From Hwangdonia lutea (GTDB lineage: Bacteria; Bacteroidota; Bacteroidia; Flavobacteriales; Flavobacteriaceae), in the NCBI RefSeq assembly GCF_032814565.1, contig NZ_CP136521.1, forward strand, positions 620,001-684,000: a stretch of 64,000 bases of DNA. The letters run 5' to 3'. The notes beneath the pieces are model-generated. The model worked only from the letters and a program-made list of their open reading frames with translations. It searched no databases and was not told the DNA's origin. This document shows positions 19,575 to 41,168 of the stretch, piece by piece. Each line of letters starts with the position of its first letter. Positions within the stretch are counted from its first letter, which is position 1. The translations under genes and the position numbers were made by a program.

Positions 19575-19614
19575 GTGGTTGTTTTTTAAATTATTTAATT
19601 CGTTATTATTATTT

Positions 19615-20637: not shown

Positions 20638-20672
20638 CAAATATTAAACAGAATTGTGCAAGATAATTGCAC
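20638..20672 (-). promoter_or_regulatory. CBASS promoter with shared defence palindrome
   Basis: Minus strand: GTGCAA-TTATC-TTGCAC, then 10 nt (AATTCTGTTT), then AATATTTG as a -7-like box, 27 nt before the capV ATG. No TTG lies 19-20 nt upstream of the -7 box, where a -33 element belongs. The layout is identical to the promoters at 26712-26746, 29485-29519 and 38503-38537. Confidence 0.75.
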
Positions 20673-20694
20673 AGTAAAAATAAAAATGTTGTCT

Positions 20695-23600
20695 TTAGGC
20701 GTTCTGCCTGTTGTTGAAGTTTTCTAAAATATTAAAAATGACATCTGCTTGTTGTTCATTAAATACACCATCAATACCTAGGGTATGGTAATTTTTGAAA
20801 GGAGAGTCATAAAGTTTTGAAGGATCAATTTTTCCGTTAGTTGACAAGAATAATTTTAATGTATCAATAAACTGAATTTGCACAGCATTTAATTGAAAAT
20901 CATTGATAAAGTCTGCAAAAGCATTATCAACACTTTCAGCTGACAATCCCATAAGGGAGACAATAAATTGCACTAAATTGAAGGTCGTACCCATTTCAGA
21001 TTCCACAGTTTGTTTTTCTATACCATTTGAGAATAACATCTTTTCTAAAGATTTTAATTCCTTTTTGGAAATGGCTTCTCCTTTACGAATTCTATTAATA
21101 GTTAGATTATCTTTATTGGTTCTTATAATTTCTTCTAAGCGGTGGATGTTATTTGTAAAAGGTGATGCATATATTTCAGATTTTTCACTAACATAATCTT
21201 TAGTAATTACCATATTTTCATTTAAGTAATCTTGAAAATCGGTTGTGACATATTTTTGGTCTACAGGGTCAATGTATTTTGTTAAATCTCGTATACCTTT
21301 TCTAATTTTCTCAAGATGCTTGATACCATCCAATCCCCAAAAGGTTTCATCTAATGGCAATTTAATTAATCCTTCTTTCTCCTTAATTTCAGGGATGGTT
21401 GTTTTTTTTAATAGCTTTTTTGAAATTATGGCTACTTTTGTGATTGGTATAGTTAATTTTGAAATAAACTCTGGAGCATCAGGAGTTTCCAGTCTATTTA
21501 TGATAAGTGCATATAACAGCTTATCATAAAATCTAGCTAAATCGGTATCTCCCTTTTTGGGACGAATTAAGGGTGATAGAACTTCATTGATTATTTTGAT
21601 GTCTTTTTTGGTAAGATGATTCCATAATTCTCGATTCTCATTGCCATAATCTAAAACCGTTTTTATATTTATTTTAACATCAAACCGTTCAGTATTTAAG
21701 TCTGCGATTTCACCATGTAATTCGTTTAATAGGCTTAAACGATATTCCTGCAATTCTATATCACTTTGGAATTTACTTTCTTTTAGATATTGAGCTAATT
21801 GTAATTTTAGGCTAAAAACTATTTCTGATAAACTTTTTTGAACAGTTGATTCAATGCCTTCTGGGTTTTCTTTAAAAAAATCAAAATTTTCACAAAGGTC
21901 AAATATTAAAAAGCGTTCCTTATCCTTTGCAATGCCAAATAAATCAGGTCTCAAACGTGAACCACGACCAATCATTTGCCAAAATTTTGAATATGATTTT
22001 ACAGGTTTATAAAATACTAAATTAACACAACTAGGAGCATCAATACCTGTATCCATCATATCTACAGAAATAGCTATTTGAGGTAATCGTTCTTTTTCTT
22101 CATCACAAAAACGACGAATAAATTCTTCAGCTTTAGGCTCACCATGTGTAATAACTTTTACATAATCATTTCCAAATCTCTCTTTATCCAATTCCATAAA
22201 AATATCTTTAAGAAATTGAGCATGCTTTTTGTTTCGTGCAAAAATGATGGTTTTACCCAACTCATCTCCACCGCGCTTTTTGATTCCGTGTTTTAATAAA
22301 AAAATGAGTGTTTTTATGGTGGTATCTTTATTGAATAACCATTGATTTAGCTCGCTTGAAGAAATCCATTCGTTACCAGATGCTTGTTCTCCATCTAAAA
22401 TTTCATCCTCAAACTCCTCTTTTTCTTTTTCTGATAATTCATCATATTTAATGCCTTGTCTTAAAAACTTAGTAGGCACTTCAATAGAGCGGTAGGGTAC
22501 TAAATGCCTGTTTTCAACAGCTTCATCAAAGGTGTAAGCATCGGTTGGTGATTTATCTGCTAATCCAAAAACACTATAGGTATTTTTATCAATTTCCTTC
22601 TTTGGAGTTGCGGTTAAACCTAAAAATAGGGCGTCAAAATATTCAAATATTGCTTGGTATTTTTTATAAATAGAACGATGAGCTTCATCTATAATAATTA
22701 AATCAAAATGACCAACTCCATAAAAACGATGGTCGCCATCTTTTGAGCCATCAATTAAACCCATCATTGTTTGATAAGTGGAAAAAGCAAAACGAGCGTC
22801 GGGATTATCCTTTTCGATGATTAAATTGACACTAGAATGCTCTGGTAAAAATTTTACAAAATTACTTTTTGCCTGACTTACCAAACTTTTTCTATCGGCT
22901 AAAAACAGAACACGTTTTATCCAATTCGCCTCAAGTAGCATTTTACATAATGCAATAGCAGTTCTCGTTTTCCCCGTACCTGTTGCCAATACCAACAAAG
23001 CTCCCCTATTAGTGCCAATTAACTTGCCTGTTTGCTTATCGGTACCAGCAAAATGTTCAGCAATACTTTTTATTGAGCGAATTTGATAAATACGACCTGA
23101 AATAGTAGCATCAATTGCAGCAGTTCTTATATCTGCCCTATGGGTGCGGCGATACATAAGTGTTTGTAGTTCGGCTTTGGTATAAAACCCATGTACTGGT
23201 CTTGACATTTTATAAAACTGATCATCCCATAAAAAGGTTTCAAAACCGTTGGTATAATAAATAACTGGTCGACGACCGTACATTTTATCTAAAGAATCGG
23301 CATATAATTGCGCTTGATTTTCTCCCCTACTTGCACTCTCCAAGGTTTTTTTAGCTTCAACCAATGCTAAAGGCAACCCATCATCATCCCATAGCACATA
23401 GTCTACATAACCCGTTTCTGAGGTGTTGGTAGATTTTGGCATATATTGTACTTTAAATTCTTTGTCTTTTGCACCTGCTAAATCCCAACCAGCTTCTCGT
23501 AATGCCACATCTATAAAATACTTACGTGTTTCATATTCGTTACGGGGGTGTTTTACTTCATCTTGAGTGTTAGCTTCTTCTTTATTAGCATCTATTTGAG

Positions 23601-24186
23601 CCTGTAAAACTTTTATTTGCTTTCTGTAAAGCTCATTTTCTTTAGCTAAGTTTTCCTTTTCTTCATTAGCTATGGCTAATTGATGTTGAAAACCATCTAA
23701 CTCTTTATTTAATAGCTCTTTTAAATCGCCAAATTCTTTTTTAGAAAGCGCATCCTGACCTTTTTTAGGTATCGCATCCCAATTGAAAACACCTAATTCT
23801 TGACCTTGGCTTTCGCCATAAGACTTGGCAAACCATTTGGCAAAATAAAAAAGGTATTCTATAATGGTATGTGAATCTACCTCATTTACTGGTTTATTGT
23901 GAATGGCAAGATTACCCGCCTTTTTTATTAGATGTAGTTCATTGTATAGTTTGTGATTAAATTGTTCTTTAAACTGTCGCTCGGTAAGCAAACTGTTTAA
24001 AGACGTATCATAAGGAAATACCAACTCATCATCCTGCGTATACATCCAGTTTACAGAAACTTCTAAAGCCATACGTGCGTATGCTAACGATGTTCTAGGG
24101 TCTGTTATAACAAGTTGTTCTGCTTTTAACGATCGCTCGTAAAAAACAGACCATTCTTGCTGTAAAAACTGAAAGTTTGTAACCAT
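20695..24186 (-). CDS. hsdR: Type I restriction enzyme, R subunit
   Basis: DNA translocase and nuclease subunit of 1163 residues. The N-terminus carries a DUF4145-like helical domain (about 15-125), followed by a coiled coil (165-205). The nuclease domain shows D262 in YVDYVLWDDD and the EAK motif (E277, K279). The SF2 motor has ATGTGKT (401-407), IIDEAHRS and LGLTATP, and later IGRGSR. The C-terminal ~300 residues fit the HsdR C-domain that docks on the methyltransferase. It lies 17 bp behind the DUF1643 gene, so it is expressed with the DUF3825 operon rather than with hsdMS. Length and motifs are complete; the enzyme looks functional. Confidence 0.95.
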   Translation of the reverse strand: MVTNFQFLQQEWSVFYERSLKAEQLVITDPRTSLAYARMALEVSVNWMYTQDDELVFPYDTSLNSLLTERQFKEQFNHKLYNELHLIKKAGNLAIHNKPVNEVDSHTIIEYLFYFAKWFAKSYGESQGQELGVFNWDAIPKKGQDALSKKEFGDLKELLNKELDGFQHQLAIANEEKENLAKENELYRKQIKVLQAQIDANKEEANTQDEVKHPRNEYETRKYFIDVALREAGWDLAGAKDKEFKVQYMPKSTNTSETGYVDYVLWDDDGLPLALVEAKKTLESASRGENQAQLYADSLDKMYGRRPVIYYTNGFETFLWDDQFYKMSRPVHGFYTKAELQTLMYRRTHRADIRTAAIDATISGRIYQIRSIKSIAEHFAGTDKQTGKLIGTNRGALLVLATGTGKTRTAIALCKMLLEANWIKRVLFLADRKSLVSQAKSNFVKFLPEHSSVNLIIEKDNPDARFAFSTYQTMMGLIDGSKDGDHRFYGVGHFDLIIIDEAHRSIYKKYQAIFEYFDALFLGLTATPKKEIDKNTYSVFGLADKSPTDAYTFDEAVENRHLVPYRSIEVPTKFLRQGIKYDELSEKEKEEFEDEILDGEQASGNEWISSSELNQWLFNKDTTIKTLIFLLKHGIKKRGGDELGKTIIFARNKKHAQFLKDIFMELDKERFGNDYVKVITHGEPKAEEFIRRFCDEEKERLPQIAISVDMMDTGIDAPSCVNLVFYKPVKSYSKFWQMIGRGSRLRPDLFGIAKDKERFLIFDLCENFDFFKENPEGIESTVQKSLSEIVFSLKLQLAQYLKESKFQSDIELQEYRLSLLNELHGEIADLNTERFDVKINIKTVLDYGNENRELWNHLTKKDIKIINEVLSPLIRPKKGDTDLARFYDKLLYALIINRLETPDAPEFISKLTIPITKVAIISKKLLKKTTIPEIKEKEGLIKLPLDETFWGLDGIKHLEKIRKGIRDLTKYIDPVDQKYVTTDFQDYLNENMVITKDYVSEKSEIYASPFTNNIHRLEEIIRTNKDNLTINRIRKGEAISKKELKSLEKMLFSNGIEKQTVESEMGTTFNLVQFIVSLMGLSAESVDNAFADFINDFQLNAVQIQFIDTLKLFLSTNGKIDPSKLYDSPFKNYHTLGIDGVFNEQQADVIFNILENFNNRQNA

Positions 24187-24203
24187 GTCTCTAAAATACT
24201 ACT

Positions 24204-24764
24204 TTATCCTTTAGTTAGCATTTTTAAATAATTATTTGTATCAATTGTCTGCAACTTAATATTTTCTACAGGACCAACATATCTATTAATGCTTTGTTGG
24301 GCTGGATGAAAAGGATGATTCTCTTGGGTTAATTTAATACACCAATAATCCAAATCGTATTTTTTTAGAAGATCTAACATGATTGCAGCATACTTTTTTA
24401 AATAAGGATGCTGAATACTATTAATATTATTACCCCATGCAAGCAAAACACTTTTAAAATTAAATTCATTTGACAACATGATGCTCTCAAGCATATCAAT
24501 ATTCTTGGTTAATAGTGATTTGTCTTCTTCTATTGACAAATTGCAAGGGTATGGTGTTCGTTGTGGAGTTATATTCAATAGCACCCAGCCATCAAAACCA
24601 TTAACAGTTGCTATTTTCTCCACATTGCTTGTTGTACCATCGTGTTTTGATGCATCAGCTGTACTAGGATTTAAACAAATTACAAGTAAATTATTTAATC
24701 CTTTTCTTCCAAGAAGATATCTAACATCCTGATCTTTTTCTGGTATGCTTAAAAATTTGTCCAT
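24204..24764 (-). CDS. DUF1643 family protein
   Basis: 186 residues matching DUF1643: RYLLGRKGLNNLLVICLNPSTAD near the N-terminus, then GFDGWVLLNITPQRTPYPCNL, VLLAWGNNI, and HPFHPAQQ near the end. Family members occur in phages, plasmids and islands; no activity is established, though conserved N, D and H residues suggest an enzyme acting on nucleotides or nucleic acid. Its start overlaps the end of the UDG-like gene by 16 bp, and hsdR follows 17 bp later, so it is firmly embedded in the restriction operon. Confidence 0.82.
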   Translation of the reverse strand: MDKFLSIPEKDQDVRYLLGRKGLNNLLVICLNPSTADASKHDGTTSNVEKIATVNGFDGWVLLNITPQRTPYPCNLSIEEDKSLLTKNIDMLESIMLSNEFNFKSVLLAWGNNINSIQHPYLKKYAAIMLDLLKKYDLDYWCIKLTQENHPFHPAQQSINRYVGPVENIKLQTIDTNNYLKMLTKG

Positions 24765-25480
24765 TTCGTGTCTAAACTGTTAAACCCTAGCTTTGTACTT
24801 TGCAACCATTGATCCATTAGAATTCTGTTTCTTGGTGTTCCTTTTAAACCTTGACCAGAAGGAGTAAACAATTGCTTTACCTTTACATGTCTTTCGCTCA
24901 AAACCTTTTCTAAACCATATAATTCTTCCGAAAATGGACTGGTGGATTTTCTTGTAAAATAAACTTGCTTAATTTGGGGATTATAATTTATATAATCAAT
25001 CAAATGTTTGGTACTCCAACTTACTTCTCCTTTTCTATTTAATTTTGCTAAATGATTATCTTTAATTAAATCATAGTGTTCATTCTCATAAAAAATATTA
25101 TTACCAGCAATACAATTTATGTTTTTTTCCGGAAGAATCTCCATAATTAAATCAGCAAAACTGAGTTTATGTTTTTTCATAAAACCAAATACTTCTTTTA
25201 GAGTTGGGTTAAAATCAGGAGGATAAAACTTCCTTTGTTTTTCTATAACAGCTATTTTATTATGCTTAAAAATGTTAAATAAAATAGGCCAAAACCAATT
25301 TCTCCCATAAAAGAAATCTGCTGGATTAGCTTCATCATTAGTTAAGGGGTTGAATGTACCAATAAACAAGATCTCTGGTTTATAAGGCGTTTCAATTAGG
25401 ATAGCATTCTCTGTACGGAACCCTTCCCCAAAATCTTTGTGAAAAAACTTGTGTCTGACTCCCATAACTCCAATGAACAT
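24749..25480 (-). CDS. Uracil-DNA glycosylase superfamily-like protein
   Basis: 243 residues. The segment ILFIGTFNPLTNDE followed by FFYGRNWFWPIL resembles the first motif and the Y-G-x-x-x-x-FW block of Mug/hypoxanthine-DNA glycosylase-type UDG proteins. The end of the fold may be QLFTPSGQGLKGTPRN, in place of the usual PSPS-type loop. Such enzymes remove deaminated or modified bases; in a defence setting a relative could target modified phage bases, which is my inference. It is encoded 14 bp behind the CSD-DUF3825 gene and overlaps DUF1643. The family assignment rests on motif resemblance only. Confidence 0.6.
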   Translation of the reverse strand: MFIGVMGVRHKFFHKDFGEGFRTENAILIETPYKPEILFIGTFNPLTNDEANPADFFYGRNWFWPILFNIFKHNKIAVIEKQRKFYPPDFNPTLKEVFGFMKKHKLSFADLIMEILPEKNINCIAGNNIFYENEHYDLIKDNHLAKLNRKGEVSWSTKHLIDYINYNPQIKQVYFTRKSTSPFSEELYGLEKVLSERHVKVKQLFTPSGQGLKGTPRNRILMDQWLQSTKLGFNSLDTKWTNF

Positions 25481-25494
25481 TTTACTTTTTTTGA

Positions 25495-26685
25495 TTACGG
25501 GTTAAGCCACTCTCTATCAGGTTTTGCTAATAACCTAGCATTGTTATATGCCCAATCTAATGGCAAAATTGTATTGGCTCTATATATTTCATTTTCTCGG
25601 GCAACAACTAATGCTAAATCAGCTCTCTCAGGCTTTTCCAAACACAAAGGCAATAGCAATTGTATTCCTCCATTATAAAACTGAGGAATTGCTGTTTTAT
25701 AATTTCTACGAACTCTTTTTAGAGCACTTTCAATTGCAGAACGCAATCTTTCCATAATTTGGTCATCGGATAGAGATTTGAAAATATCTGGAAATCTATC
25801 TTCACGGTCATCTACAATGTGTTCAAAATCAGGAATTAATCTTCTATTAACATCATATAACAAGTCAGTGGGAGTTGAAAAATAATTAGCCAATTTTGGG
25901 CGTTCTTTAAAATGTGTCATTATTCGATCACTTTCTCTATCAAATTTTAAAAATTGCCACTTTTGTGACTCTAAATTTAAATAAGAATACGTAGGTGATG
26001 GCGGTCTATTTATTTCAAAATATGCAAATATCTCTTCTTGTTTAACAGTAACTAAACCAGTGTTAAATGCTGCATAACTATCAATTCCATTAAATTTGGC
26101 ATATTCAATTTTATTTTCCTTAACCAATTGAATGAACGTTTGATGAACATAACTATCTAGAACAGGATGTGCACCAGTTTTTTCGTCTAGATAATCCCAT
26201 TCTTCTGGTTGCGCTAAATTGGTTAAACCGTTTATTGCTTCATCCCAATTGCCAAGATAAGCAAATTTGTCTAATGGATTTCTAGTGTCAATGCAAACTA
26301 CATTTTCAGCACTTAAGCGAGTTCCATCATCCGATGGTGTCAATTCAACAGTAAAACCTTCTCTTATTTTTTTAAAACCATATTGACCAACTACTTGAGA
26401 GTGATGAAACCAATAATCTTTTGAATTTGCTTCAATCCATCCCCAACCATCAGTCATTTGGTATTCTTTAATTTTTCCTCTGACCCTTTTTTTTAATCTT
26501 TTTACCTTAATGGCGTTTAATCCCTTTTCTGTTTCTTTTGGTTCAAATTCCACTTCTTCTCCTTCGTATAAAACTTTAAAGTTTCCTTCTACCTCTGAAT
26601 TATGTACAAAATGCTCTTTTAAGTTTTCATCTAAAACTTTACCAAACCCTCTTTGGAGATTAAAAAATGATACCTTTCCTTTCAT
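25495..26685 (-). CDS. Tandem cold-shock-domain protein with DUF3825
   Basis: 396 residues. Residues 1-63 form a CSD/OB-like domain (GKVSFFNLQRGFGKVLDEN, EHFVHNSEV). Residues about 68-130 form a second one (RGKIKEYQMTDGWGWIEANSKDYWFHHSQV). The rest (about 135-396) matches DUF3825: PLDKFAYLGNWDEAINGL, IDSYAAFNTGLVT, and QFYNGGIQLLLPLCLE, ALVVARENEIYRANTIL. CSDs bind single-stranded nucleic acid; DUF3825 has no proven activity. It is first gene of a four-gene operon ending in hsdR, with its own shared-palindrome promoter. It may sense or act on phage or damaged nucleic acid; this is inference. Confidence 0.8.
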   Translation of the reverse strand: MKGKVSFFNLQRGFGKVLDENLKEHFVHNSEVEGNFKVLYEGEEVEFEPKETEKGLNAIKVKRLKKRVRGKIKEYQMTDGWGWIEANSKDYWFHHSQVVGQYGFKKIREGFTVELTPSDDGTRLSAENVVCIDTRNPLDKFAYLGNWDEAINGLTNLAQPEEWDYLDEKTGAHPVLDSYVHQTFIQLVKENKIEYAKFNGIDSYAAFNTGLVTVKQEEIFAYFEINRPPSPTYSYLNLESQKWQFLKFDRESDRIMTHFKERPKLANYFSTPTDLLYDVNRRLIPDFEHIVDDREDRFPDIFKSLSDDQIMERLRSAIESALKRVRRNYKTAIPQFYNGGIQLLLPLCLEKPERADLALVVARENEIYRANTILPLDWAYNNARLLAKPDREWLNP

Positions 26686-26711
26686 ATTGAGAATAATTTA
26701 AAATTGAATTA

Positions 26712-26746
26712 CAAATATATAAGTGTCATATGTAATATAATTGCAT
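26712..26746 (-). promoter_or_regulatory. Promoter of the DUF3825-hsdR operon with shared defence palindrome
   Basis: Minus strand: ATGCAA-TTATA-TTACAT, then 10 nt (ATGACACTTA), then TATATTTG, a perfect -7 box, 26 nt before the start of the DUF3825 gene. There is no -33 TTG at the normal distance. The spacing is the same as at the capV, hsdM and druH promoters. Confidence 0.78.
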
Positions 26747-26748
26747 AG

Positions 26749-27936
26749 CTATAACAACTCGCCCCTAAACGCCTTTTGTAATAAGCAATTAAATAAATCT
26801 TCACTTTCTTTTAATTCTTGTTTTGCTAGTATTTTTTGTTGTTCTATTAATTTTAATTTTTCTGTAAACTTTTTTTGTAGTTCTATAGGTGGATAAATTA
26901 TTGGGAATTCTTCTAAATGATTTTTATTTAATTGCCTTTTATCTATTCCTCCAACGCACACCCTACGTATATGTTCACGATATTCGTTGGTTGTTAGAAT
27001 AAATAAGACATACTCATTGATAACATTTTTCTTAAGCCTAATTAAATAAACGTGTCCATTAACATTTGCTTTATCATCCTCACCTAAGTACATTGCCGCC
27101 CTACCTAAACTGCTGTTTTCCGTATTTATTCTGCCTGTTTTGGTCATTAAAATGTCTCCATTTTTTAAACTGCTATTTTTCATTTTATCATGAGTGGCTT
27201 TATCAATATAAGCAACATCGTCAAGTAGTAAGTTGTTTTTCCACACATTCTGGCTTCTAAAGAAAGTTATTCCTTCATCTACATAAACTTTACTGCCTCC
27301 TTTGGGTGTATTTCCACTTCCTATGTTGGTTGATAACTCTTTTAGTTTATGAACCTTCCAACCTTTTTGATTGGCAACTGGGTCTCCAAAAATATCTAAA
27401 AAAATAGATTTTGCTAAAGCATTATATTCAATTAAAAGATGTTCCGTTTTATCCCTTAAATTTGCAGCACTTTCTAGAATTTCAGCAATTTGTTTCTGGA
27501 TTGTAAGAGGTAGCAAAGGAATTTTTAAGTTATTAATGTCTTCTAACCGAATACTAGGATATGCCGAATCCAAAATTAATTTTGATGGCTTAAACCAAGA
27601 AAGAAATTTAGCAAGAAAGAGGGCGTCGAAAGTCTTGTTTGGTAAAACGGCTGCCAAATGGCTAACGTAACAGGTTTCTTCTTCCGTAATATATATTCTA
27701 TTTTTTGTAGCACTCATGCCGCTTTTAGCAAATAAAATACTGTTTTTTGGAAGTCTTTTTAATCTTTTCTCTTTAATTATATCATCTGATACTTTTGGTA
27801 AAGAACATAATTTCCCTCCATTTGTCAATTCTTCTAAATGACCGGCCCTAATAAAGGGTAAACCTTCATTTGAAAATTTTTTTGGCGCAGCTTGACCTGC
27901 AGTAACTTTAGCAATATCACCTAACCTAACAATCAT
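26749..27936 (-). CDS. hsdS: Type I restriction enzyme, specificity subunit
   Basis: 395 residues with two target-recognition domains, each followed by a long conserved helix. The first half runs IVRLGDIAKVTAGQ to IPLLPLTIQKQIAEILESA. The second runs GWKVHKLKELSTNIGSGNTPKGG to PIIYPPIELQKKFTEKLKLIEQQK, and the protein ends LLQKAFRGELL. The TRDs determine the bipartite DNA target, which cannot be predicted here. Its ATG overlaps the hsdM stop codon (ATGA), and it directly follows hsdM. No truncation is evident. Confidence 0.94.
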   Translation of the reverse strand: MIVRLGDIAKVTAGQAAPKKFSNEGLPFIRAGHLEELTNGGKLCSLPKVSDDIIKEKRLKRLPKNSILFAKSGMSATKNRIYITEEETCYVSHLAAVLPNKTFDALFLAKFLSWFKPSKLILDSAYPSIRLEDINNLKIPLLPLTIQKQIAEILESAANLRDKTEHLLIEYNALAKSIFLDIFGDPVANQKGWKVHKLKELSTNIGSGNTPKGGSKVYVDEGITFFRSQNVWKNNLLLDDVAYIDKATHDKMKNSSLKNGDILMTKTGRINTENSSLGRAAMYLGEDDKANVNGHVYLIRLKKNVINEYVLFILTTNEYREHIRRVCVGGIDKRQLNKNHLEEFPIIYPPIELQKKFTEKLKLIEQQKILAKQELKESEDLFNCLLQKAFRGELL

Positions 27937-29459: not shown

Positions 29460-29484
29460 TTGTAATTTTATTAGTTTATCAATG

Positions 29485-29519
29485 CAAATAAAACAATTTG
29501 TTATGCAATCTATTTACAT
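29485..29519 (-). promoter_or_regulatory. hsdMS promoter with shared defence palindrome
   Basis: Minus strand: ATGTAA-ATAGA-TTGCAT, then 10 nt (AACAAATTGT), then TTTATTTG as the -7-like box, 25 nt before the hsdM ATG. It lies in the 67-bp gap behind the DruE-like gene. No -33 TTG is found at 19-20 nt. Confidence 0.72.
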
Positions 29520-29526
29520 AGTTGTA

Positions 29527-32500
29527 TTAATCTTCAATATTTATATTGTAGATAATATCGTAACCTACATCTTTTCGTATTTCAAATACTTGGTCTTCCA
29601 TCTTCATCTCATTAGAAGTCAATCTTTCTACTGGCTTTAACCCATGAGCAATACCCCCATCAATTCTTATACTGAAAGAAATCTCATTGGATGTGAACTT
29701 AAAATATCTATAATGCGGTAATCTCTCTTCTTCTATAAAGTCTATCTTAAAATCATAATTGTTTGAAAGTTCTTTAAGATCATACACATAATCATCGAGC
29801 TCTTTGTAATTATGAATTATATACTCTGGATAATTAGGCCCTCTAAAATCTGATTTGGCGAGATGTACATTTAGTTCTGAAACCTTAATAGGCCATAGCT
29901 TTTTAATCTGATTAATGAATTGTAGCATTAATCGCAATGAAAATTCAGATTGATTATACTTATCAAAGTAAACTACTTTAAATATTTGATTTGATATTCT
30001 AGATATAAAATCTTGAGCGTTATTAAGGTTAGTTATCATTAGTTTAGCAACGTCGTTACTTTGACTATTTCTTGGTAAACTACCTTTAATTCTGGATTCA
30101 AATAAATTCCATGAGGCCAAATCTGGAATTATAATATCAGAGTAATTTTCCAATTTAGTATTTTCAACTTTAAAGAATTTTTCTTTTATACCAAAAGTCC
30201 ATTTCTCATTTAAACCGTCATAATTCCCTTTTGAAATATAACTTAATGTATTATCGTTTTGAAGTGTTATTGATAAATGAATAGGATAGTCTAGAATGGT
30301 ATTTTTATTACCATGTCTTAAATTGAAATTATGAGATAATAAATATGCAGTTAGTTTTTCTTGGTTATTAGCAAAGACAATGTCGCCTTCAATCACCAAA
30401 TTGATTCCGATTCTATCTCTCTTTAAATTATTTATCCAACTTATTCTCTCTAAGTCCCACTCTGTAATCTTACTATTAACATGTATATTAATTTCTTTTA
30501 TTTCATATTGATATTTGAGAATGTTGATTTCATCATGAAGGGATCCAAAGACCAAGCTTACTTTATCACTTTCATGTTGTAATTCTTTTGGTAGTTGATT
30601 ATCCATAGTAGAACGCAACCATTCTATTGCAATAAAACGATTTAGGTCTTCAATATGCCATTGGGTGCCACGATCTATTAGACATTTAGTACAAGCTGTC
30701 TGGCAATCACAACTATCTAAAACATTTAAAGCAAGTTTCAGAATTTTTTCTGCGAATAATCTAAATTGAGAAGCATAACCTGCGCCCCCTTTTGCAGTAT
30801 CATAAATAAATATGGTTTGGTAGCCATTATATTGTTTAATACCAAAACCTAATTCTGTTTCTTCAATGGCTAGATACTCTGCTAAAGATTTAGTAAAAAT
30901 CACACCTAGTGTATAGGCTAGTTTTTTATCACTAACAAAAGATTGGATTCTATTCTTTAAGCGGATTTCTGTAAAATCTGTCTTAAATCTGTTACCTAAA
31001 ATAATATGTTCTCTTACGTTTTGAGTTGTACAGATACTTTCACCATTACTATCTCGTCCACCTCTTAACCGTCTATGTCCTTCTAGTTGCTGTCTAGAGT
31101 TTCCGACTTTACCACAATCTAGGCACAAACTGTAACCTTCGCCTTCGCCTGTATTATAAAATAGTATTTGTGTTTCCTTTTCACTCGAACTTGTCCTAAA
31201 ATCAATGAAACGATTTTGGTTGACATTCCAGGGTTCAATATTTAGAAGAAGCGGTTCTAAATATTGAGGTTTACTCTTTTCTGAAACGACTCTTGTAGGT
31301 ATACTATATAAATCAATAGAGAACCCTGCGGGCTCAATGAGCTCAGTGAAAGAGCCTTTATGCTCTCCCAGGTCTAACCCTTGGAAAGAACTGACACCAT
31401 TACATTTAGGACAATTATCTTCTATGTTTTCTTGAAGGTCAACAGTACGTTGATATCCACAGTTTTTACACCCTTGTATAACATTTCTGTCTGCAGACTG
31501 CCCCCAGATATTCTTCATAATTATACCCGAAGATTTATAATTAAGTCCATCAATTAGAATATTGTTACCTGGTGCAAACTCAGTAAGTGCTCTAGCAATA
31601 GGGTAACTTGGGTTTGACTTTAACTTGCCTTTATTGTTTTGTAAGTCAGACAATGTGATTTTTTCAAAATCTACAATTCCTGTGGGTAACCCAGCATTTG
31701 GTAAAAAACTTTCTTCAGCTAAATAATTGAGAACAAATTTCTGTAAAAACTGACCTTTTCTATAACTTATCGCTTTGTATGCCGGACTTGCATCTCCAAA
31801 CTGCTTTTTTAATTCTTCAAGTTTTCTATCATAACCATCTCTTTGAGTTCTAATTCGACCGATTATATTCTTAAAATTATCTGAAACCATGGAGATGAGT
31901 TCTTCTGGGCTGGCATCAGACAAAGGTGTATTATTAACGATGTATTCTAATTGTTTCTTGAATACATTTGCATCTATACTTTCCAACCAGTTTAGAAAGT
32001 TATGAGCTATAGTAGGCGAATCCTCATAAAAGAACTTTTCAATATTTTCTTTTACATTGAGTCCTCTGTTTTCATTTCCTTGGTGTCTAATAAATATTCC
32101 AAACAATAAAGAATTTACGTGTCTCTCTACAATATTCTTACTATCAAAAGCTAGAATTGGTGGAGCTATTTTGTGTTCTAAAGCCCATTTAGGATTGTTC
32201 ATTGTACGCAGTCCAATTGGATTAGGTGCGCAAAAAGTTAGTGCTAAAGATTTATTTTCTGCACGACGACCAGCTCGACCAGTTCTTTGTAAATAGTTTG
32301 CAGGCATAGGTGGTACATTACTCATCACTACGGCAGATATTCCACCTATATCAACACCCATTTCCATAGTTGTAGAACAGCTCAAGATGTTTATTTCTCC
32401 ATTTTCGAATTGCTCTTCTAACTCTTTGAGTCGCTTTTTATCTTGTTGTGCTGAATGTTCTCCTGCTAGATATAGTTTGTCATAATCAAATATGCGTTCA

Positions 32501-35421
32501 TGTAAATCATTCCACAACCCCTTATTTCTAGCCTCTTGGCTATTTTCTTTTAACCAAGCGTTAACTGTTTCTATATAAATAGTTTCATTATTTTCATCCT
32601 TGTGATAAGGATGTGAGTAAGATGGGAATTGATGATTTTTACTAATGTCTATTTTATAATTATTGATATTACTAGGTTCTAAATTTCCTTTAATTAAAGG
32701 GGAATATCCTCTAAAAACCTTATCAACCAACCTCTTAGTTACCGGACATAAAAACTCTTGACCAGCTATTTCAAATTGAGTACTTTCTAGGAAATCAAGT
32801 TTATATCCGTCTCCATCGGCAGTTAGTATTTTTTGTTGTAAAGTTCTCCATATTTTCTCTAATAACTCATTAAGTTGATCTTCTCTAACCTCTGTTATGT
32901 CACCTCTGTCGTGCCAGCCTAATCCTGCGCAAATCAATAAAACCAAACGTGACTGAGCAATAGAATTTGGATTGTATAATCTCCATTTTTTTGCATTGAC
33001 AATTTCGGTGTTTGATGGATATATTAATTCAGATCGATAGAACTTAGACGTGAATAATCGCATTGAATCGTCAAAAGAGAAATTGAAATTGTATCGAATA
33101 ATGTAATCTGCTGAGACTTTCAGTAGAGCTTGCCATTCCTCATTAATAATTCCAAGTTTGGTTGCTATTTCTGGCAGTATCACATTATCCAAATTTGGAT
33201 ATACCACATTAACTAATCCTAAATTTTCAAGCGATCTTTCCCTTGGTATTCTGCGTGCAAACTGATCATATAGTAAAGACTTTGCATATATCACATTTTC
33301 AGTTGCCAGATTATTGCCTCTAGCCCCTTTTTTAAAAAGTGTTTTAAAATCATTTTTTTCTTTTATATGATCTATAATCTCTTTCCAACAAGTCCTACTA
33401 TTGGATAATGAGTCTTTGTTTCCTGAGGTTAATCTAAAATTTATTTCTTCAATTTCTTTTTGAATTTTACTTTTCATAAAGGCAGGTGCCTCTTCCAACT
33501 GCTTTACATACATAGCCCTTGCTTGTAAAAGCTCATCATTAGTAGCTATTACTTGATTTTCTTTTAACTTTTTAAGCAAATAATGATATACCTGATATCG
33601 TATCCAATCACTTTCGCTATCTATATTTATTAGTGCGGAAATCTTGGCAGTTCCTTGTCTACTATCTGTAAATGAAATATACTTTCTTCCTTTGTATAAG
33701 GTTTTAGTAGTTTGATTACTTATGACCTCTGTTTGGTCTAAAACAATGTCGGATAAGATTCTATTCGTAAATGCAGATGAAATTCTAAAATGAATAGGAT
33801 TGTCATTTTGATTACCACAATGTGGACATCGACTCTCATCGGACATTAAAAAATCTTCTCCAAGATGATTAATAGTACTATCTAAGTTAATACTACATGG
33901 TAATAAAGGATTGTTCAGATCAATATGTTCTTTTCTCACAAGTCTTACCATGCGGTTGTCGACTTTTATCATGCTTTCATCTTCCTCACCCTTATCTTCG
34001 TTTTCTATGCTAAATGCCTCATAACCAACTGTTGCTTTTTGAGTGATTTTATCTTTATATCTTTCTCCTTCTAACATCATATTACCACAGCTTCTGCAGG
34101 CGATAAGTTCTAATAGAGGGTATTTACAAGAAGAACAATTTTTACCCGATATAGTATACATTGTACCTAATGCCTTATTTGGTTTTTGAGCTTTATGTTT
34201 ATCACACTTAGTATTGGTACAAACGTAAACACCCCCAATTCCTCTCGTGAAAAAATGACCCCGAACAGGAAGTAGATTTTCTCCATTTACCTTGTGTTCT
34301 GCGAGTGTATCAATTACTTCTAATTGATCCAGCCTATTATGAATGTGCAGGTACTGTCCAATTTCACTTTGAGTAATGCCTTTATTGTTTAAAAATTTAT
34401 CTCTAAGTAGTTTGATGTTATTCTGAGATAGTGTTTGAGATAATTGAGGAATATCTTCATCCGCTATTTGATTATTAACTCGCTTACCCGTAACTACTTC
34501 AATTTGATCTACCGAAATACCACAAAGATCAGACATAAATTTTTTAAGTGTTTCTATATTGTCACTCCCTACAGTAGCAGAAGTTATGGCGAATCTCAAA
34601 TCTTTTATATCTACTTCAAAGGCAGAAACAACACGCCTTATAAGTAATGCCATTTCCGCTGCTTTAGAACCAGTAAGTGTATGTGCTTCATCTAATAAAA
34701 TCCAGCGTAATGATCCTTTTGATTTTTCTAGTATTGGAACATCAGCATTACGAACCAACATATATTCTAGCATTGTAGGATTCGTAAACAAAATCTGTGG
34801 TGGTGTTTCTCTTATTTGCTCTCTTGAGATTAGTTCTGGTAGTGCATTCTTCTTTTTGTCTTTACTATTCTCTTTATTGGCTGTATCACCAGTTAGCAAT
34901 GCATACTTTACACCATCTAAAGCCGAACACCAAGCGTGCATTCTCTTTCTTTGACTAGCAATTAAAGCATTTAAAGGATACAAAAAAATAGCGTTAATAC
35001 CTTCTTTATTTTTGCTGTTTTGATGAATATCGTGAATTACTGGAAGCATAAAACATTCTGTTTTACCAGAACCAGTTCCTGTAGTAACCGCAATTGATTT
35101 ATTCTTATCAAGTAACATTTTCCAGCTTATAAGCTGGTGTTTATATGGTTTACGATCTTTAGGAAATCTAAAATCGTCGTCTTTAATTTTATCTAAGGCA
35201 TTAATAAACTCTTGTTTAAAAATAGTTGATGTTTGACCAAAAGTTAATTGATCTTGTTCCCAAGGAAATGTATTCTGGAAAACGGCATCTGCCATAATGG
35301 GCTCTTGAGATAATAAGAATTTAAAGTAGTCTTGCATTTCTTTATCACCAGTAGCCCAAAGCGATAATATAGCATCATTCAATCTATTCTCTGTTTTATT
35401 ATAAAATTCTTTAAAATTCAT
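29527..35421 (-). CDS. druE: DruE-like SF2 helicase with DUF1998 domain (Druantia type III-like)
   Basis: Very large helicase, 1964 residues. Motor motifs: GTGSGKT (115-121), LLDEAHTL near 240, ITSATVG near 280, and motif VI LQRTGRAGRR in the middle. Several zinc-knuckle pairs are seen: CSSCKYP, CRSCGN, CPHCGN, CKNCGY, CPKCNG, CLDCGK. The DUF1998 region follows with YDTAKGGAGY and the cluster CDCQTACTKCLIDRG. A further ~400 residues have no recognised domain. Size, domain order and pairing with a ~1000-residue gene directly upstream (4 bp) fit DruE of Druantia, whose type III consists of DruH and DruE. DISARM DrmA/DrmB is less likely, because helicase and DUF1998 are fused here and no methylase or PLD gene accompanies them. 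Confidence 0.75.
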   Translation of the reverse strand: MNFKEFYNKTENRLNDAILSLWATGDKEMQDYFKFLLSQEPIMADAVFQNTFPWEQDQLTFGQTSTIFKQEFINALDKIKDDDFRFPKDRKPYKHQLISWKMLLDKNKSIAVTTGTGSGKTECFMLPVIHDIHQNSKNKEGINAIFLYPLNALIASQRKRMHAWCSALDGVKYALLTGDTANKENSKDKKKNALPELISREQIRETPPQILFTNPTMLEYMLVRNADVPILEKSKGSLRWILLDEAHTLTGSKAAEMALLIRRVVSAFEVDIKDLRFAITSATVGSDNIETLKKFMSDLCGISVDQIEVVTGKRVNNQIADEDIPQLSQTLSQNNIKLLRDKFLNNKGITQSEIGQYLHIHNRLDQLEVIDTLAEHKVNGENLLPVRGHFFTRGIGGVYVCTNTKCDKHKAQKPNKALGTMYTISGKNCSSCKYPLLELIACRSCGNMMLEGERYKDKITQKATVGYEAFSIENEDKGEEDESMIKVDNRMVRLVRKEHIDLNNPLLPCSINLDSTINHLGEDFLMSDESRCPHCGNQNDNPIHFRISSAFTNRILSDIVLDQTEVISNQTTKTLYKGRKYISFTDSRQGTAKISALINIDSESDWIRYQVYHYLLKKLKENQVIATNDELLQARAMYVKQLEEAPAFMKSKIQKEIEEINFRLTSGNKDSLSNSRTCWKEIIDHIKEKNDFKTLFKKGARGNNLATENVIYAKSLLYDQFARRIPRERSLENLGLVNVVYPNLDNVILPEIATKLGIINEEWQALLKVSADYIIRYNFNFSFDDSMRLFTSKFYRSELIYPSNTEIVNAKKWRLYNPNSIAQSRLVLLICAGLGWHDRGDITEVREDQLNELLEKIWRTLQQKILTADGDGYKLDFLESTQFEIAGQEFLCPVTKRLVDKVFRGYSPLIKGNLEPSNINNYKIDISKNHQFPSYSHPYHKDENNETIYIETVNAWLKENSQEARNKGLWNDLHERIFDYDKLYLAGEHSAQQDKKRLKELEEQFENGEINILSCSTTMEMGVDIGGISAVVMSNVPPMPANYLQRTGRAGRRAENKSLALTFCAPNPIGLRTMNNPKWALEHKIAPPILAFDSKNIVERHVNSLLFGIFIRHQGNENRGLNVKENIEKFFYEDSPTIAHNFLNWLESIDANVFKKQLEYIVNNTPLSDASPEELISMVSDNFKNIIGRIRTQRDGYDRKLEELKKQFGDASPAYKAISYRKGQFLQKFVLNYLAEESFLPNAGLPTGIVDFEKITLSDLQNNKGKLKSNPSYPIARALTEFAPGNNILIDGLNYKSSGIIMKNIWGQSADRNVIQGCKNCGYQRTVDLQENIEDNCPKCNGVSSFQGLDLGEHKGSFTELIEPAGFSIDLYSIPTRVVSEKSKPQYLEPLLLNIEPWNVNQNRFIDFRTSSSEKETQILFYNTGEGEGYSLCLDCGKVGNSRQQLEGHRRLRGGRDSNGESICTTQNVREHIILGNRFKTDFTEIRLKNRIQSFVSDKKLAYTLGVIFTKSLAEYLAIEETELGFGIKQYNGYQTIFIYDTAKGGAGYASQFRLFAEKILKLALNVLDSCDCQTACTKCLIDRGTQWHIEDLNRFIAIEWLRSTMDNQLPKELQHESDKVSLVFGSLHDEINILKYQYEIKEINIHVNSKITEWDLERISWINNLKRDRIGINLVIEGDIVFANNQEKLTAYLLSHNFNLRHGNKNTILDYPIHLSITLQNDNTLSYISKGNYDGLNEKWTFGIKEKFFKVENTKLENYSDIIIPDLASWNLFESRIKGSLPRNSQSNDVAKLMITNLNNAQDFISRISNQIFKVVYFDKYNQSEFSLRLMLQFINQIKKLWPIKVSELNVHLAKSDFRGPNYPEYIIHNYKELDDYVYDLKELSNNYDFKIDFIEEERLPHYRYFKFTSNEISFSIRIDGGIAHGLKPVERLTSNEMKMEDQVFEIRKDVGYDIIYNINIED

Positions 35422-35425
35422 AGAT

Positions 35426-38400
35426 TTAGCATCTTTTAAGGGCGTGGAAAATTGTTTTGTTGTAAAAATCTGGTTTTAGATATTGACTGTATTGAATATT
35501 TCTTCTTATGACTTCTCTTTTTTCATCACCTGCCCATATAGGGTAGTCCTTCTGCCTATCACTAATAGATTCTGCAACGGCAATTGGGGCTTGTAAAAGC
35601 AATCTGACCTGATGGTGCTCTTCAACTTGAATATTATAATTTCCATTTATTTTAGGACTATTATATGGTAGCTCTCCAAGAACTCTAGTTCCTAGTTGAG
35701 ACCTCAAGTCAAGGATATTTCTTTGTAAGATTGGTTCTGATTCAATATTTGAACCACTTATAAACTTAAAGAGTTTTTGCAAGCCATTCTCACCCATATA
35801 AGAAGAAATAAGCTCAGCTATATGGCTGTAATATTTGTAATTATCGGGTTCATTAATCTCTGCTATAGCATTTCCCCAATCTGTTTTTGTTATCCAATGA
35901 AAACAAAAACCCAAATCTTTCTCCATCTCTGGTATTGCTTTTTGGATATATTCAGTTGAGTCAGATTGATTAATTCCTAAAAACAAGAAAGCTCTTGACG
36001 CAACTTCAGAACCCCTAGAAATAGCTCGTAATTGATCAAAGGTCGAAAACGGTAAATCATATTGAACACAAATCTTAAAGTACGCTAAGACCTGTTGCCA
36101 AACATCATCATTGTAAGTTGTGATTGTTAATTCTTTATGGTAGTTCTCAATACGTTCGTATTTATCTACACCAAGAAAAAAATCACCTGTATTTACAAAA
36201 CGAGGCATTAATTGTTTCCCTTCTTTTTTTGAAGAAATTATAATAAATTGATTTGAAATGTCAGTAGAGGGAATAACATATGATTCATCATTTCGCACAA
36301 GTGAAATAATTTCAATTTCATCTGCAGTACAATTTACTGGGATTGCAAATAATTCAAGATTATCATTAGAATTTAAAAGACTAACCTTGTTCCTTAATTG
36401 ATTGTCAATGTCAAGCATATGACTAAATCCTGAGATTTTATAGATTTTCTTATGCTTTCCCTCTGATAACTCAAGACAAACAGTATTTTTAAAATCCATA
36501 GCATCCGCTAGATAAAATAGTCTTACTATTTCATCTTTAAAAGAAATCACTGGCTGATTAGATTCTTTTATCTCCTTAATGATTTTTACATCTGTTTTTA
36601 GGCTGTTTTTAATTTTAAGTAAAGTCTCGGTATTAGGTGTACTAAGAATACGCATCCCATAAAGATTGGCAAGAGATAAAGGTTGATCTTCATTAATAAT
36701 TTGACCATCTTTATCTATAATCGCCATCCCTTGAAAAGGTGAAAGTAAATCGAAGAAGAGCTTCTTTTTACTAGGGAAACCTAGAGAACCTTTTATAATA
36801 GTAGGGATTTTAGAAAGCTCTGTGTTTACTTTTAAAACATAACGATTATTATCCTCTTCTATTTGTACTAATGTTGATTCATTTAGTTTACATTCAAAAT
36901 AATCAAGGTTTCTAAATTCAATTAGTGCCGAATGAATAGATTGGTTTGAATATCGGGCTTGTAGATTTCCTATATTAAAAAAAACATCGTGAGCTATTAA
37001 ATCATCTTTTTCAATTCTTAAATCAAAACATCCAGTAGAAATATAGCTTAACCTAGAAAGGTTTTCCCAAATATCTTTAGAATTGTGTTTCTTTATCCAT
37101 ACTTTAAATCGATTCCTTTTAATATCATACCCTTCATCATCATAAACTAGTATATTTGGAATTCCTTGAACAACTGGTAAGTTAGATTTCAACATCCAAA
37201 TTGGTTTTTTATTTTCTATTATCCAGTCGAAAGAACTGACACCGCTCATATATGTTTTAATCTCTTCTTCAAATTGAATATCTACTTCGCCTTCAAACGG
37301 CATCCAAAAAAAACTCTTTGTATATAATGAAATCAGGGAAGAAGGTAGGTCACATTTCCAATGAGTAGGAAACAATACGGCTGCTTCTTTATTTGAGGCT
37401 GCATAACCCTTAATTAGTCGCCATTCTTTATCGTTAAATCTGGCCCATAAACTAGGTTCTTCTAGGTTTGGAATAGTTTGTATATAATCTGGTAACTCAG
37501 TCTTCTTTTCATTGCAAATTACGTATGTGTAAGGGAGACCAGTAGAAAGATCCCATTCTTTATTCTCTTGATTATACCAGTCTGTTTTAAATTGTCCATT
37601 TGCCATTTTACGAAAAACACATACTAGATTATCATCCATAAAAAATTGATAATCTCTTTCTAGCGCTTCAAATCCTAAAATATCACTTAAAGTATCTTTA
37701 GTATAAGTATTAGCTAAACCTAGTCTCAAGAAGATATTACATTCATTATTTTTAAAACTGAGTAACCAATAATTTTTAGTTTTCGATTGTTTTATTTTTT
37801 TTGTTAGTGAAGCACTTTTAACCTTTAATGCACTTGAAATATCTTTTAGAGAGTCTTCTGATTCAAGTAATTTATCATATTCACCATCGTTATTTAAAAT
37901 TGATTTAACTATTTCAAGACAATTTTCGTATATGATATCATTTTGACTAGATTTAGGTAAGAGGTCAATTATGTGAGTTTTGAACATAAAATCTTCTATT
38001 GTTTCTGGCTGTTCTTCTAAAACAGCCTCTAAGAAAGCTTTGTAATTTCCATGATTTTCTGAAATATGCTTTAGAGGAAGCCCTCCTTGCAGCAGTAGTG
38101 TTTTGAAATAGAGGGTATTTTGTTTTTTAATCCATTTAATACCCAATATTTGTGCACCCATTCTGGCTAATTTATAAAATTCATCGTATGTTAAATTAAA
38201 CCTAATATTTCCTCCTAAAGAGTCAAAAATATCCTGTTTACTGGGAATTCCTCCGTTGTAGTTTTCTTTCCACCATTGTGCATAATAAAGTGTAACATCC
38301 CTTGGGTCTATGGTATCAATATTCCCAAATTGCAATGTAAAACTAAGTCTCTGAAATTCCTCATTGGTTAAAAGATATTTCCATAGAGGTCGACCATGAT

Positions 38401-38446
38401 GTTTAGGTATATTACGTTTATGCAGTAAAGAAGAAAAAAAACTCAT
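35426..38446 (-). CDS. druH: DruH-like large protein of the Druantia type III-like pair
   Basis: 1006 residues with no enzyme motif or membrane segment that I recognise. It begins MSFFSSLLHKRNIPKHHGRP, with WKYLLTNEEFQRLSFTLQFGN soon after; the rest is mixed alpha/beta. The identity rests on context: it is encoded 4 bp before a DruE-type helicase, as in type III Druantia (DruH + DruE), with matching size. Its promoter carries the shared defence palindrome directly behind the WYL gene. The alternative is an unnamed helicase-partner system; a profile comparison with DruH would decide. Confidence 0.55.
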   Translation of the reverse strand: MSFFSSLLHKRNIPKHHGRPLWKYLLTNEEFQRLSFTLQFGNIDTIDPRDVTLYYAQWWKENYNGGIPSKQDIFDSLGGNIRFNLTYDEFYKLARMGAQILGIKWIKKQNTLYFKTLLLQGGLPLKHISENHGNYKAFLEAVLEEQPETIEDFMFKTHIIDLLPKSSQNDIIYENCLEIVKSILNNDGEYDKLLESEDSLKDISSALKVKSASLTKKIKQSKTKNYWLLSFKNNECNIFLRLGLANTYTKDTLSDILGFEALERDYQFFMDDNLVCVFRKMANGQFKTDWYNQENKEWDLSTGLPYTYVICNEKKTELPDYIQTIPNLEEPSLWARFNDKEWRLIKGYAASNKEAAVLFPTHWKCDLPSSLISLYTKSFFWMPFEGEVDIQFEEEIKTYMSGVSSFDWIIENKKPIWMLKSNLPVVQGIPNILVYDDEGYDIKRNRFKVWIKKHNSKDIWENLSRLSYISTGCFDLRIEKDDLIAHDVFFNIGNLQARYSNQSIHSALIEFRNLDYFECKLNESTLVQIEEDNNRYVLKVNTELSKIPTIIKGSLGFPSKKKLFFDLLSPFQGMAIIDKDGQIINEDQPLSLANLYGMRILSTPNTETLLKIKNSLKTDVKIIKEIKESNQPVISFKDEIVRLFYLADAMDFKNTVCLELSEGKHKKIYKISGFSHMLDIDNQLRNKVSLLNSNDNLELFAIPVNCTADEIEIISLVRNDESYVIPSTDISNQFIIISSKKEGKQLMPRFVNTGDFFLGVDKYERIENYHKELTITTYNDDVWQQVLAYFKICVQYDLPFSTFDQLRAISRGSEVASRAFLFLGINQSDSTEYIQKAIPEMEKDLGFCFHWITKTDWGNAIAEINEPDNYKYYSHIAELISSYMGENGLQKLFKFISGSNIESEPILQRNILDLRSQLGTRVLGELPYNSPKINGNYNIQVEEHHQVRLLLQAPIAVAESISDRQKDYPIWAGDEKREVIRRNIQYSQYLKPDFYNKTIFHALKRC

Positions 38447-38502
38447 TGGCTATTAGTTAAATTGTGCTTACCAGCTTTTTATTAAAATTTATTTCAATAA
38501 TT

Positions 38503-38537
38503 CAAAATAAGTTATTAAATATGCAAAGTATTTGCAC
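38503..38537 (-). promoter_or_regulatory. Druantia-like operon promoter with shared defence palindrome
   Basis: Minus strand: GTGCAA-ATACT-TTGCAT, then 10 nt (ATTTAATAAC), then TTATTTTG as the -7-like box, 56 nt before the druH ATG. The palindrome begins 5 nt beyond the stop codon of the WYL gene. There is no -33 TTG at the usual distance. Confidence 0.75.
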
Positions 38538-39582: not shown

Positions 39583-40269
39583 TTATTTAAATAGTGATTG
39601 AATTTTCGTCATTATCATTTTGTATCTAGTTTCTTGAGTTTCATAATAAAGATTCCCCAAAATAGCTTCCTGCATCCTATTTGATTCTAAAATATTTTGA
39701 AATTGTTGAAGCAAATAAGCTTTAACTTTATTATTGGCACTAATAACTATTTCATGCCAATCTGTACGATTATCTAAAATATAAATAATATCCTCAAAAT
39801 CATGACTCATCCTAGGATCATTTCCTCCTCGGTCCGCATGAGCTACAAACTTACTGGCTAAAAAGTAAGGTAATGGCATTATATTAATGGTATGTTCATC
39901 CAATTGAATTTGTTCTTTATGTTCAAAACCTAATTCAAACCAGGGATTAGCAGGCGCCCAACCTACGGGCTTAGTTCCCATAACATCTACCAAAATATTA
40001 TCAAGCTTAAATCTGCAAATCACACCTAAATCTGCTGATTGTTTAAATCCTTTTTCTACTAATTTTTCTCTAATTTCTTCTAAATGTGTTATAGATATAA
40101 TTTTGATACTGATATCAATATCTTTTGTGGGTCTAACATCATCTGCAGCTGGATCATTGATATATAAGCTGACGGTTGCTCCCCCAACATAGATAACTTC
40201 ATTGTTAAGTTCACCCAATGCTTGCGCTACTCGTTGAATGATTATTCTATTTATAATTGTGTTTTTCAA
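39583..40269 (-). CDS. MNT-like nucleotidyltransferase (AbiEii-like)
   Basis: 228 residues with a nucleotidyltransferase core: VIYVGGATVSLYIND, then RPTKDIDISIKI, giving the GG-x(n)-D-x-D arrangement, and ILVDVMGTKPVGW with a third acid. AbiEii-type toxins and related proteins share this plan and pair with a winged-HTH protein. Here the wHTH gene overlaps the start by 4 bp, and the WYL gene follows 5 bp later. A toxin-antitoxin or defence-accessory role is likely but not certain. The catalytic acids look intact. Confidence 0.75.
   Translation of the reverse strand: MKNTIINRIIIQRVAQALGELNNEVIYVGGATVSLYINDPAADDVRPTKDIDISIKIISITHLEEIREKLVEKGFKQSADLGVICRFKLDNILVDVMGTKPVGWAPANPWFELGFEHKEQIQLDEHTINIMPLPYFLASKFVAHADRGGNDPRMSHDFEDIIYILDNRTDWHEIVISANNKVKAYLLQQFQNILESNRMQEAILGNLYYETQETRYKMIMTKIQSLFK

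Positions 40270-41094: not shown

Positions 41095-41168
<74 letters not shown>

Follow-up and report, generated by a model that had tools for sequence, protein, structure and literature searches.

A fixed-distance operator shared by four defence operons of Hwangdonia lutea, and a putative WYL-family activator behind it

The 64,000-nt stretch of the Hwangdonia lutea chromosome analysed here (contig NZ_CP136521.1, positions 620,001 to 684,000; referred to below as the window) carries an island of anti-phage defence systems, in which four operons on the minus strand each begin behind an operator-promoter of the same type. The operons encode a cyclic-oligonucleotide-based anti-phage signalling system (CBASS), a type I restriction–modification (R-M) system split over two operons of the island, and a Druantia type III system. 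A gene for a WYL-domain regulator is situated among the defence systems, both in the window and at related loci. The sites and genes concerned are as follows:

20638-20672, minus strand: CBASS operator-promoter, GTGCAATTATCTTGCAC-N14-TTTG, 27 nt before the capV start
26712-26746, minus strand: DUF3825-orf243-DUF1643-hsdR operator-promoter, ATGCAATTATATTACAT-N14-TTTG, 26 nt upstream of the DUF3825 gene start
29485-29519, minus strand: hsdM-hsdS operator-promoter, ATGTAAATAGATTGCAT-N14-TTTG, 25 nt upstream of the hsdM start; also kept at hsdM in locus L065
38503-38537, minus strand: druH-druE operator-promoter, GTGCAAATACTTTGCAT-N14-TTTG, 56 nt upstream of the druH start, 5 nt beyond the end of the WYL gene
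19615-20610, minus strand: CBASS patatin-like effector, capV
18564-19658, minus strand: CBASS DncV-like cyclase
18116-18574, minus strand: CBASS E2-like protein
25495-26685, minus strand: cold-shock and DUF3825 protein, first gene of the hsdR operon
24749-25480, minus strand: open reading frame (ORF) of 243 aa with no family match
24204-24764, minus strand: DUF1643 protein
20695-24186, minus strand: type I restriction subunit HsdR
27933-29459, minus strand: type I methyltransferase HsdM
26749-27936, minus strand: type I specificity subunit HsdS
35426-38446, minus strand: Druantia type III DruH
29527-35421, minus strand: Druantia type III helicase DruE
38543-39577, minus strand: WYL regulator gene (344 aa; winged helix-turn-helix [wHTH], helices, WYL, WCX), a putative DNA-binding homodimer
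39583-40269, minus strand: AbiEii-like nucleotidyltransferase (NTase) upstream of the WYL gene
40266-40778, minus strand: PADLOC PDC-M21A protein, labelled wHTH in the preliminary description only; a rival candidate for the regulator

Re-reading of the sequence placed all four sites, with their -7 boxes, where a preliminary description of this DNA had put them, and in front of the genes it had named (capV of CBASS, DUF3825 to hsdR, hsdM-hsdS and druH-druE). In all four, RTGYAA-N5-TTRCAY is followed by 14 nt and then TTTG; the spacers and 10-nt gaps are unlike each other, and only the half-sites and distances are constant. TTG is absent 21–25 nt before the TTTG of each site, and the tRNA-Met promoter cited for comparison does carry it (TTG-N19-TATATTTG). 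The consensus proposed at the time fits the four sites, but the core kept in relatives is RTGCA-N7-TGCAY. Five RTGYAA-N5-TTRCAY palindromes occur in the window (0.15 expected), a number reached in 0 of 100 shuffles; a chance origin of the palindromes is ruled out by this control together with the control stretches described below. The fifth palindrome (45991-46007), at the beginning of an ORF for an oxidoreductase, is not flanked by TTTG at a distance of 14 nt in either direction, and the four sites are the only places in the window with palindrome and TTTG at zero mismatches. The whole 3.9-Mb genome holds the palindrome at eight places (16 rows over both strands), namely the four island sites, 45991-46007 and loci L006-L008, with TTTG at offset 14 in the island four only. 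Many equally good matches over the chromosome had been named as evidence that would speak against a common regulator; scans of the genome with the exact palindrome and with RTGCA-N7-TGCAY did not find them. TTTG at 14 nt occurs in none of the palindromes inside open stretches of at least 260 codons (L006, L008, L079, L080, L083, L085, L086), nor in L007, at the edge of a 160-codon open stretch. TTTA stands at this offset in L085 and L084. The latter (1501-1517 of the locus; C1:2401724-2401740 of the genome) is intergenic, lies 60 nt before a 454-aa ORF and may be a real, distant target.

WYL homologues were found in 78 of 299 genomes of the family. Stretches of up to 20 kb around 40 of the best-scoring WYL places, chosen by the WYL protein only and including a second WYL gene of H. 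lutea itself, formed with the window a discovery set of 41 sequences (822 kb); 20 stretches (400 kb) of other DNA from 20 of the same genomes, taken at arbitrary rather than random places, served as controls. A matrix built from 16 seed sites gave 54 matches at a score of at least 18 in the 41 sequences, 16 of them the seeds themselves, against 0.33 in Markov-simulated sequence, and many of these matches lie shortly before a gene, often straight after the stop codon of the WYL gene. The control stretches gave one match at 13 or more and none at 15 or more. The WYL loci contain 33 RTGCA-N7-TGCAY and 29 RCGCA-N7-TGCGY palindromes, and the controls none of either. RTGC-N9-GCAY or RCGC-N9-GCGY with TTTG at 14 nt (14 or 15 for the CGCA form) is present in 35 of the 41 sequences. 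A replicate set was drawn from an alignment scan of named genomes, in which a single-protein scan had given no match: the best 80 of at least 573 places were reduced to 76 loci by dropping duplicates (L238, L240, L245 and L246). The architecture was found in 60 of these 76 loci, including representatives of Winogradskyella, Leeuwenhoekiella, Flavobacterium, Sphingobacterium, Chitinophaga, Flammeovirga and the Bacteroidales, the two sets possibly sharing species. A further 36 loci, all but one from outside the family, divide by our own reading of the listing into 12 with the architecture, 13 with the palindrome only and 11 with neither. At least two site rows occur in 29 of the 61 site-bearing replicate loci (imperfect TTTG allowed, two-sided palindromes counted twice) and at least two sites with TTTG in 22 of 37 discovery sequences; multi-site loci are thus common. 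Two copies in L058 have identical 35-bp sites. Among the proteins tested, only the WYL protein is common to the loci: the PDC-M21A protein was matched in one of 76 WYL loci (L039) and the NTase in none of the 76.

The distance to the -7 box was determined on palindromes taken regardless of TTTG, with both sides counted. Among 31 intergenic TGCA palindromes of the discovery set, TTTG stands at 14 nt in 22 cases and at any other offset in no more than two; for the 28 CGCA palindromes the counts are 20 at 14 nt, eight at 15 nt and no more than two elsewhere. The 90 TGCA palindromes of the replicate set gave 78 at 14 nt, three at 13, none at 15, one at 16 and at most seven elsewhere. Palindromes with TTTG end 14 nt upstream of it, and the operator covers the -35/-33 region, its distance from the -7 box (which is read from the TTTG) being fixed, as in the DriD type; they do not lie over or downstream of the -10, as the operators of CapW and BrxR do, with exceptions at the WYL starts of L052 and L160. 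Single palindromes with -7-like boxes 14 nt away on both sides were seen in L061 (3135/3153) and L074 (8734/8752), with TTTA on one side.

The two forms of the half-site follow the phylogeny of the WYL proteins. In a tree of 42 of these proteins, rooted at the midpoint, the 18 rows labelled CGCA form one clade (100/100) nested among the TGCA rows; 21 TGCA and 16 CGCA labels are based on sites of the same class, those of L056, L062, L070 (TGCA, the half-sites of L070 being mixed) and L060 (CGCA) on near matches, and L075, which has no site, is CGCA by default. Both kinds of WYL gene occur in locus L061, each adjoining its own site class. Behind CGCA sites lie a 12-member RtcB cluster (three members scanned), RlaP (two), a T4-type RNA ligase (one), a TPR protein, a barstar-like protein and two proteins without family, and a WYL-controlled RNA-repair regulon of this class is likely in the family. 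WYL genes of the CGCA class near RtcB, RlaP or RNA ligase were noted at L061, L064, L067-L069, L071-L072, L074, L076-L078 and L190-L219. The genes behind TGCA sites, pooled over both sets, fall into 61 sequence clusters, many of a single gene, of which representatives only were scanned for families. They include type I methylases (29), retron-type reverse transcriptases (17), TOTE/PDC-M16A helicases (12), WYL genes (12, from both classes), OLD-like ATPases (6), DruH (4) and DUF2130 (3 and 2), and several of the scanned representatives had no family match. CBASS was found behind the operator in the window only, and a capV relative in L162 belongs to a locus without a site.

Some of these targets have further domains. 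The retron-type reverse transcriptases behind TGCA operators include those of L268 (6303-7757) and L275 (2673-5015), the latter fused to a HisKin-conflict domain; their cluster also holds L244, L277, L282 and L292. Two methylases, encoded at L040 (10607-13090; 827 aa) and L236 (9080-11680; 866 aa), end in an ATPase domain of the histidine-kinase type and belong to the largest cluster behind the operator; the 827-aa protein also has HARE-HTH and Methylase_S domains.

The presence of the site was compared with that of the WYL gene for individual targets. RtcB was found in 36 of the 299 genomes, and 30 loci were compared. The CGCA pattern was found within 1.5 kb upstream of rtcB at 26 of the 28 loci of WYL-positive genomes, the remaining ones having a mixed site (G193) or, by eye, one changed base (G028). 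No site was found at the rtcB loci of two genomes without a WYL match (G097 and G298; RtcB about 80% identical), in which, by eye, a segment with the operator and the -7 box is missing before rtcB. For hsdM, a site within 1.5 kb was found at none of eight loci of WYL-negative genomes, the HsdM proteins of which are also more distant, and at five of nine loci of WYL-positive genomes; it lies further up the operon in G040 and G013 and is absent from G260 and G134. Locus L065 resembles the window in its defence genes (druE up to 76% identical, hsdM 83% over the 83 residues available); its WYL protein is only 29% identical and belongs to another lineage, and the operator before hsdM is nonetheless retained. 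By eye, a mixed site also precedes druH in this locus. The operator kept beside a WYL protein of another lineage suggests that modules can swap the resident regulator and keep the operator.

The WYL and WCX domains of the window protein score above the Pfam cut-offs. An AlphaFold2 model (mean predicted local distance difference test [pLDDT] 84, predicted template modelling score 0.54) shows an N-terminal helix-turn-helix (HTH)-like domain (residues 1-84), the WYL domain (about 171-229) and WCX (about 264-343); three helices (97-112, 117-137 and 156-167) lie between HTH and WYL, in a block with a pLDDT of only 61-74 over residues 91-160. A profile search of the PDB gave DriD chains at the top, followed by PafBC, BrxR and CapW, and Foldseek likewise ranked DriD and PafBC ahead of CapW and BrxR; the single protein gave no WYL match in the PDB by phmmer. 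Forty of the 41 discovery sequences, the window among them, gave a single WYL match (phmmer E<=1e-3, at which remoter WYL proteins could escape). The second WYL gene of H. lutea (C1:1517679-1518677; L047 9170-10177), the product of which is 34% identical to the island protein, has TGCA palindromes on both sides, one of them before a second hsdM-like gene, with TTTA and ATTG as boxes.

That one dimeric regulator serves the four operons, as the preliminary description had proposed, is strongly supported by these sequence patterns: the site accompanies WYL genes in many lineages and is missing from the control DNA, its half-site follows the WYL clade, and it is missing before rtcB in the two genomes examined that gave no WYL match. 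We consider it probable (about 0.7) that the island WYL protein, as a homodimer, activates the four operons from its fixed-distance operators; binding, dimer formation, activation and the ligand are what we infer from the DNA. The homodimer would place one winged helix on each RTGYA half-site. With its centre about 22 nt before TTTG, it would keep a constant distance from the nAnnTTTG -7 box downstream and take the place in which the housekeeping sigma factor otherwise reads the -33 element. A signal that arises when phages attack or DNA is damaged, by analogy single-stranded DNA (ssDNA) on the WYL domain, would switch the dimer on; the dimer would then keep RNA polymerase at promoters that lack a -33 box, and CBASS, Druantia III and the two type I R-M operons would rise together. 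The paralogous WYL clade, with one changed base per half-site, would run RNA-repair genes.

The fixed position over the -33 region gives a geometry that fits an activator of the DriD type rather than the repressor sites of CapW and BrxR. An activator at this position had been proposed earlier, with PafBC as its model; exact spacing and likeness to DriD favour activation, but the homodimeric DriD seems a better parallel than the heterodimeric PafBC. A rather unlikely alternative, which nevertheless deserves attention, is that the WYL protein is a repressor of the BrxR/CapW type, the dimer covering the -33 region and blocking RNA polymerase until a ligand releases it. The defence regulators BrxR and CapW are described as repressors (PMC9122601; PMC9122588), and the palindromes lie over the -33 region and, at some loci, over the start of the WYL gene. 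Nor do structure scores tell the types apart: VIA-align gives Z values of 10.6-12.2 for BrxR, CapW, DriD and PafBC, with BrxR first. A single spacing (14 nt; also 15 for CGCA) on more than 100 palindrome sides is, however, stricter than steric blocking would be expected to need, and the sites differ in position from those described for CapW, the palindromes of which overlap the -10 of one operon (PMC9122588), and for BrxR, the box of which is downstream of a predicted -10 (PMC9122601). TTG at -33 (gap 21–25) is also scarce in operator promoters (2 of 70), a weak test given that generic TAnnTTTG sites, themselves not enriched, have it in just 6 of 56 cases. That another protein binds the sites, either the PDC-M21A protein or an unseen host factor, is very improbable: the PDC-M21A gene heads the WYL operon in the window, but it and the NTase gene are all but missing from the WYL loci, the control stretches lack sites, and the half-site class tracks the WYL clade. 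Less credible still is the idea that the four sites derive from a single promoter, copied around by recombination, and no longer have a function. Operators do recur within islands, as the identical pair in L058 illustrates, but the spacers and 10-nt gaps of the window differ, and distant WYL lineages keep the half-sites and spacing and, to a lesser extent, the flanks.

Several observations, in addition to the scores and the TTG counts, weigh against an activator serving all these loci. The pattern is absent from six of the 41 discovery sequences (L047, L056, L060, L062, L070 and L075), 16 of the 76 replicate loci and 24 of the 36 phylum-wide loci. In family f24, assigned to the Balneolaceae by overlap with L238 and L240, palindromes occur in seven of eight loci and TTTG at 14 nt in none; these two Balneolaceae loci correspond to L156 and L168, both without TTTG at 14 nt. 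At rtcB, several sites are as far as 300-943 nt upstream and may belong to a different gene, and palindromes that immediately precede or overlap the start codon of the WYL gene (L052 18377-18393; L160 around 9139) suggest autorepression in some lineages. If a type I R-M system and its methylase are induced at once, self-restriction would be a risk unless a basal level exists.

Many features of the system have counterparts in known regulators, as described in the passages cited. DriD of Caulobacter is a protein of wHTH, three-helix bundle, WYL and WCX that acts at several promoters. Its sites overlie the -35 and keep a single distance to the -10; the -35 boxes there are poor, and one case is bidirectional. 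Unlike here, it governs a DNA-damage regulon rather than defence islands, from a pseudo-palindrome of 20 bp (preprint PMC12340889). The WYL gene studied here, unlike that of DriD, belongs to a mobile defence island and is often directly followed by a site. PafBC is likewise a WYL activator near the -35 region, but it is a heterodimer of two different WYL subunits, of which only PafB contacts promoter DNA, at about -24 (PMC12340889); a second subunit is not seen here, where 40 of 41 sequences have one WYL match. SiwR, a homodimeric WYL activator with an imperfect palindrome and an ssDNA ligand, would resemble the proposed regulator in these features but governs a genotoxic-stress operon (PMC10693628). 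DriD, PafBC and SiwR are all described as binding ssDNA. BrxR resembles the present regulator in adjoining diverse defence systems, in its inverted repeats and in having two boxes in one island (PMC9122601), and CapW in being a WYL homodimer (putative here) at a palindrome before CBASS (PMC9122588). RptR (PMC12255303) provides one regulator per defence island and CapK/CapS (PMC13373217) a regulator pair before diverse immune operons, but these are unrelated proteins described as repressing the adjacent operon. The earlier statement that a shared regulator of a defence island was undescribed goes too far, two repressors having preceded it in the accounts cited: BrxR, with two boxes in one island, and RptR, at one promoter of an island. 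WYL regulators near defence systems are already known. The words Bacteroid- and Flavobacter- are absent from the BrxR text PMC9122601, and no activator regulon of several defence operons was found in searches of the open-licence literature; the PMC articles so searched gave no account of this operator either, of a defence activator of WYL type in Bacteroidota, or of RtcB under the control of a WYL protein. Nor did these searches find a WYL operator at one spacing from the -7 box that is common to unrelated defence modules and RNA repair in many Bacteroidota.

The island lies on a probable mobile element, marked by the following features:

41095-41168, minus strand: tRNA-Met gene, partly repeated at 4052-4090
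4052-4090, minus strand: repeat of the 3' part of tRNA-Met, at least 39 bp, probable att site
4295-5734, plus strand: element integrase

The tRNA-Met gene and its repeat beside the integrase are the probable ends of this element. The defence island and the WYL gene both lie between the two and therefore probably travel together. The integrative element between the repeats measures about 37 kb and has, besides the integrase, a coupling protein and a DUF5712 gene. The Druantia type III pair is complete (PADLOC DruH3 3.6e-52, DruE3 E=0), and CBASS is represented by cyclase and effector, plus the E2-like protein. The cold-shock–DUF3825 gene, the 243-aa orphan and the DUF1643 gene stand in a row with hsdR (24204-26685), and a DUF1643 relative precedes hsdR in L040 as well.

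The same promoter standard is found among WYL homologues of many Bacteroidota, so such modules could be served by different resident WYL proteins. It is about an even bet that the Bacteroidota possess a portable immunity promoter standard, in which WYL activators switched on by signals of nucleic-acid damage co-induce R-M, Druantia, CBASS, retron-type systems, OLD ATPases and TOTE helicases from RTGCA-N7-TGCAY-N14-TTTG, and a sister clade, its half-site altered by one base, induces RtcB and RlaP. Where the target is a retron, its multicopy single-stranded DNA could itself be the putative sensor ligand of the WYL protein. The proposal bears on the timing and coordination of many defence systems in bacteria, and the phage-defence WYL regulators identified up to 2023 are described as repressors (PMC10693628). 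If this interpretation holds, defence regulons would be predictable from DNA alone over much of the phylum through the operator-promoter code, the slotting of unrelated modules into one island under joint control would be explained, and one regulator family would link anti-phage defence with RNA repair.

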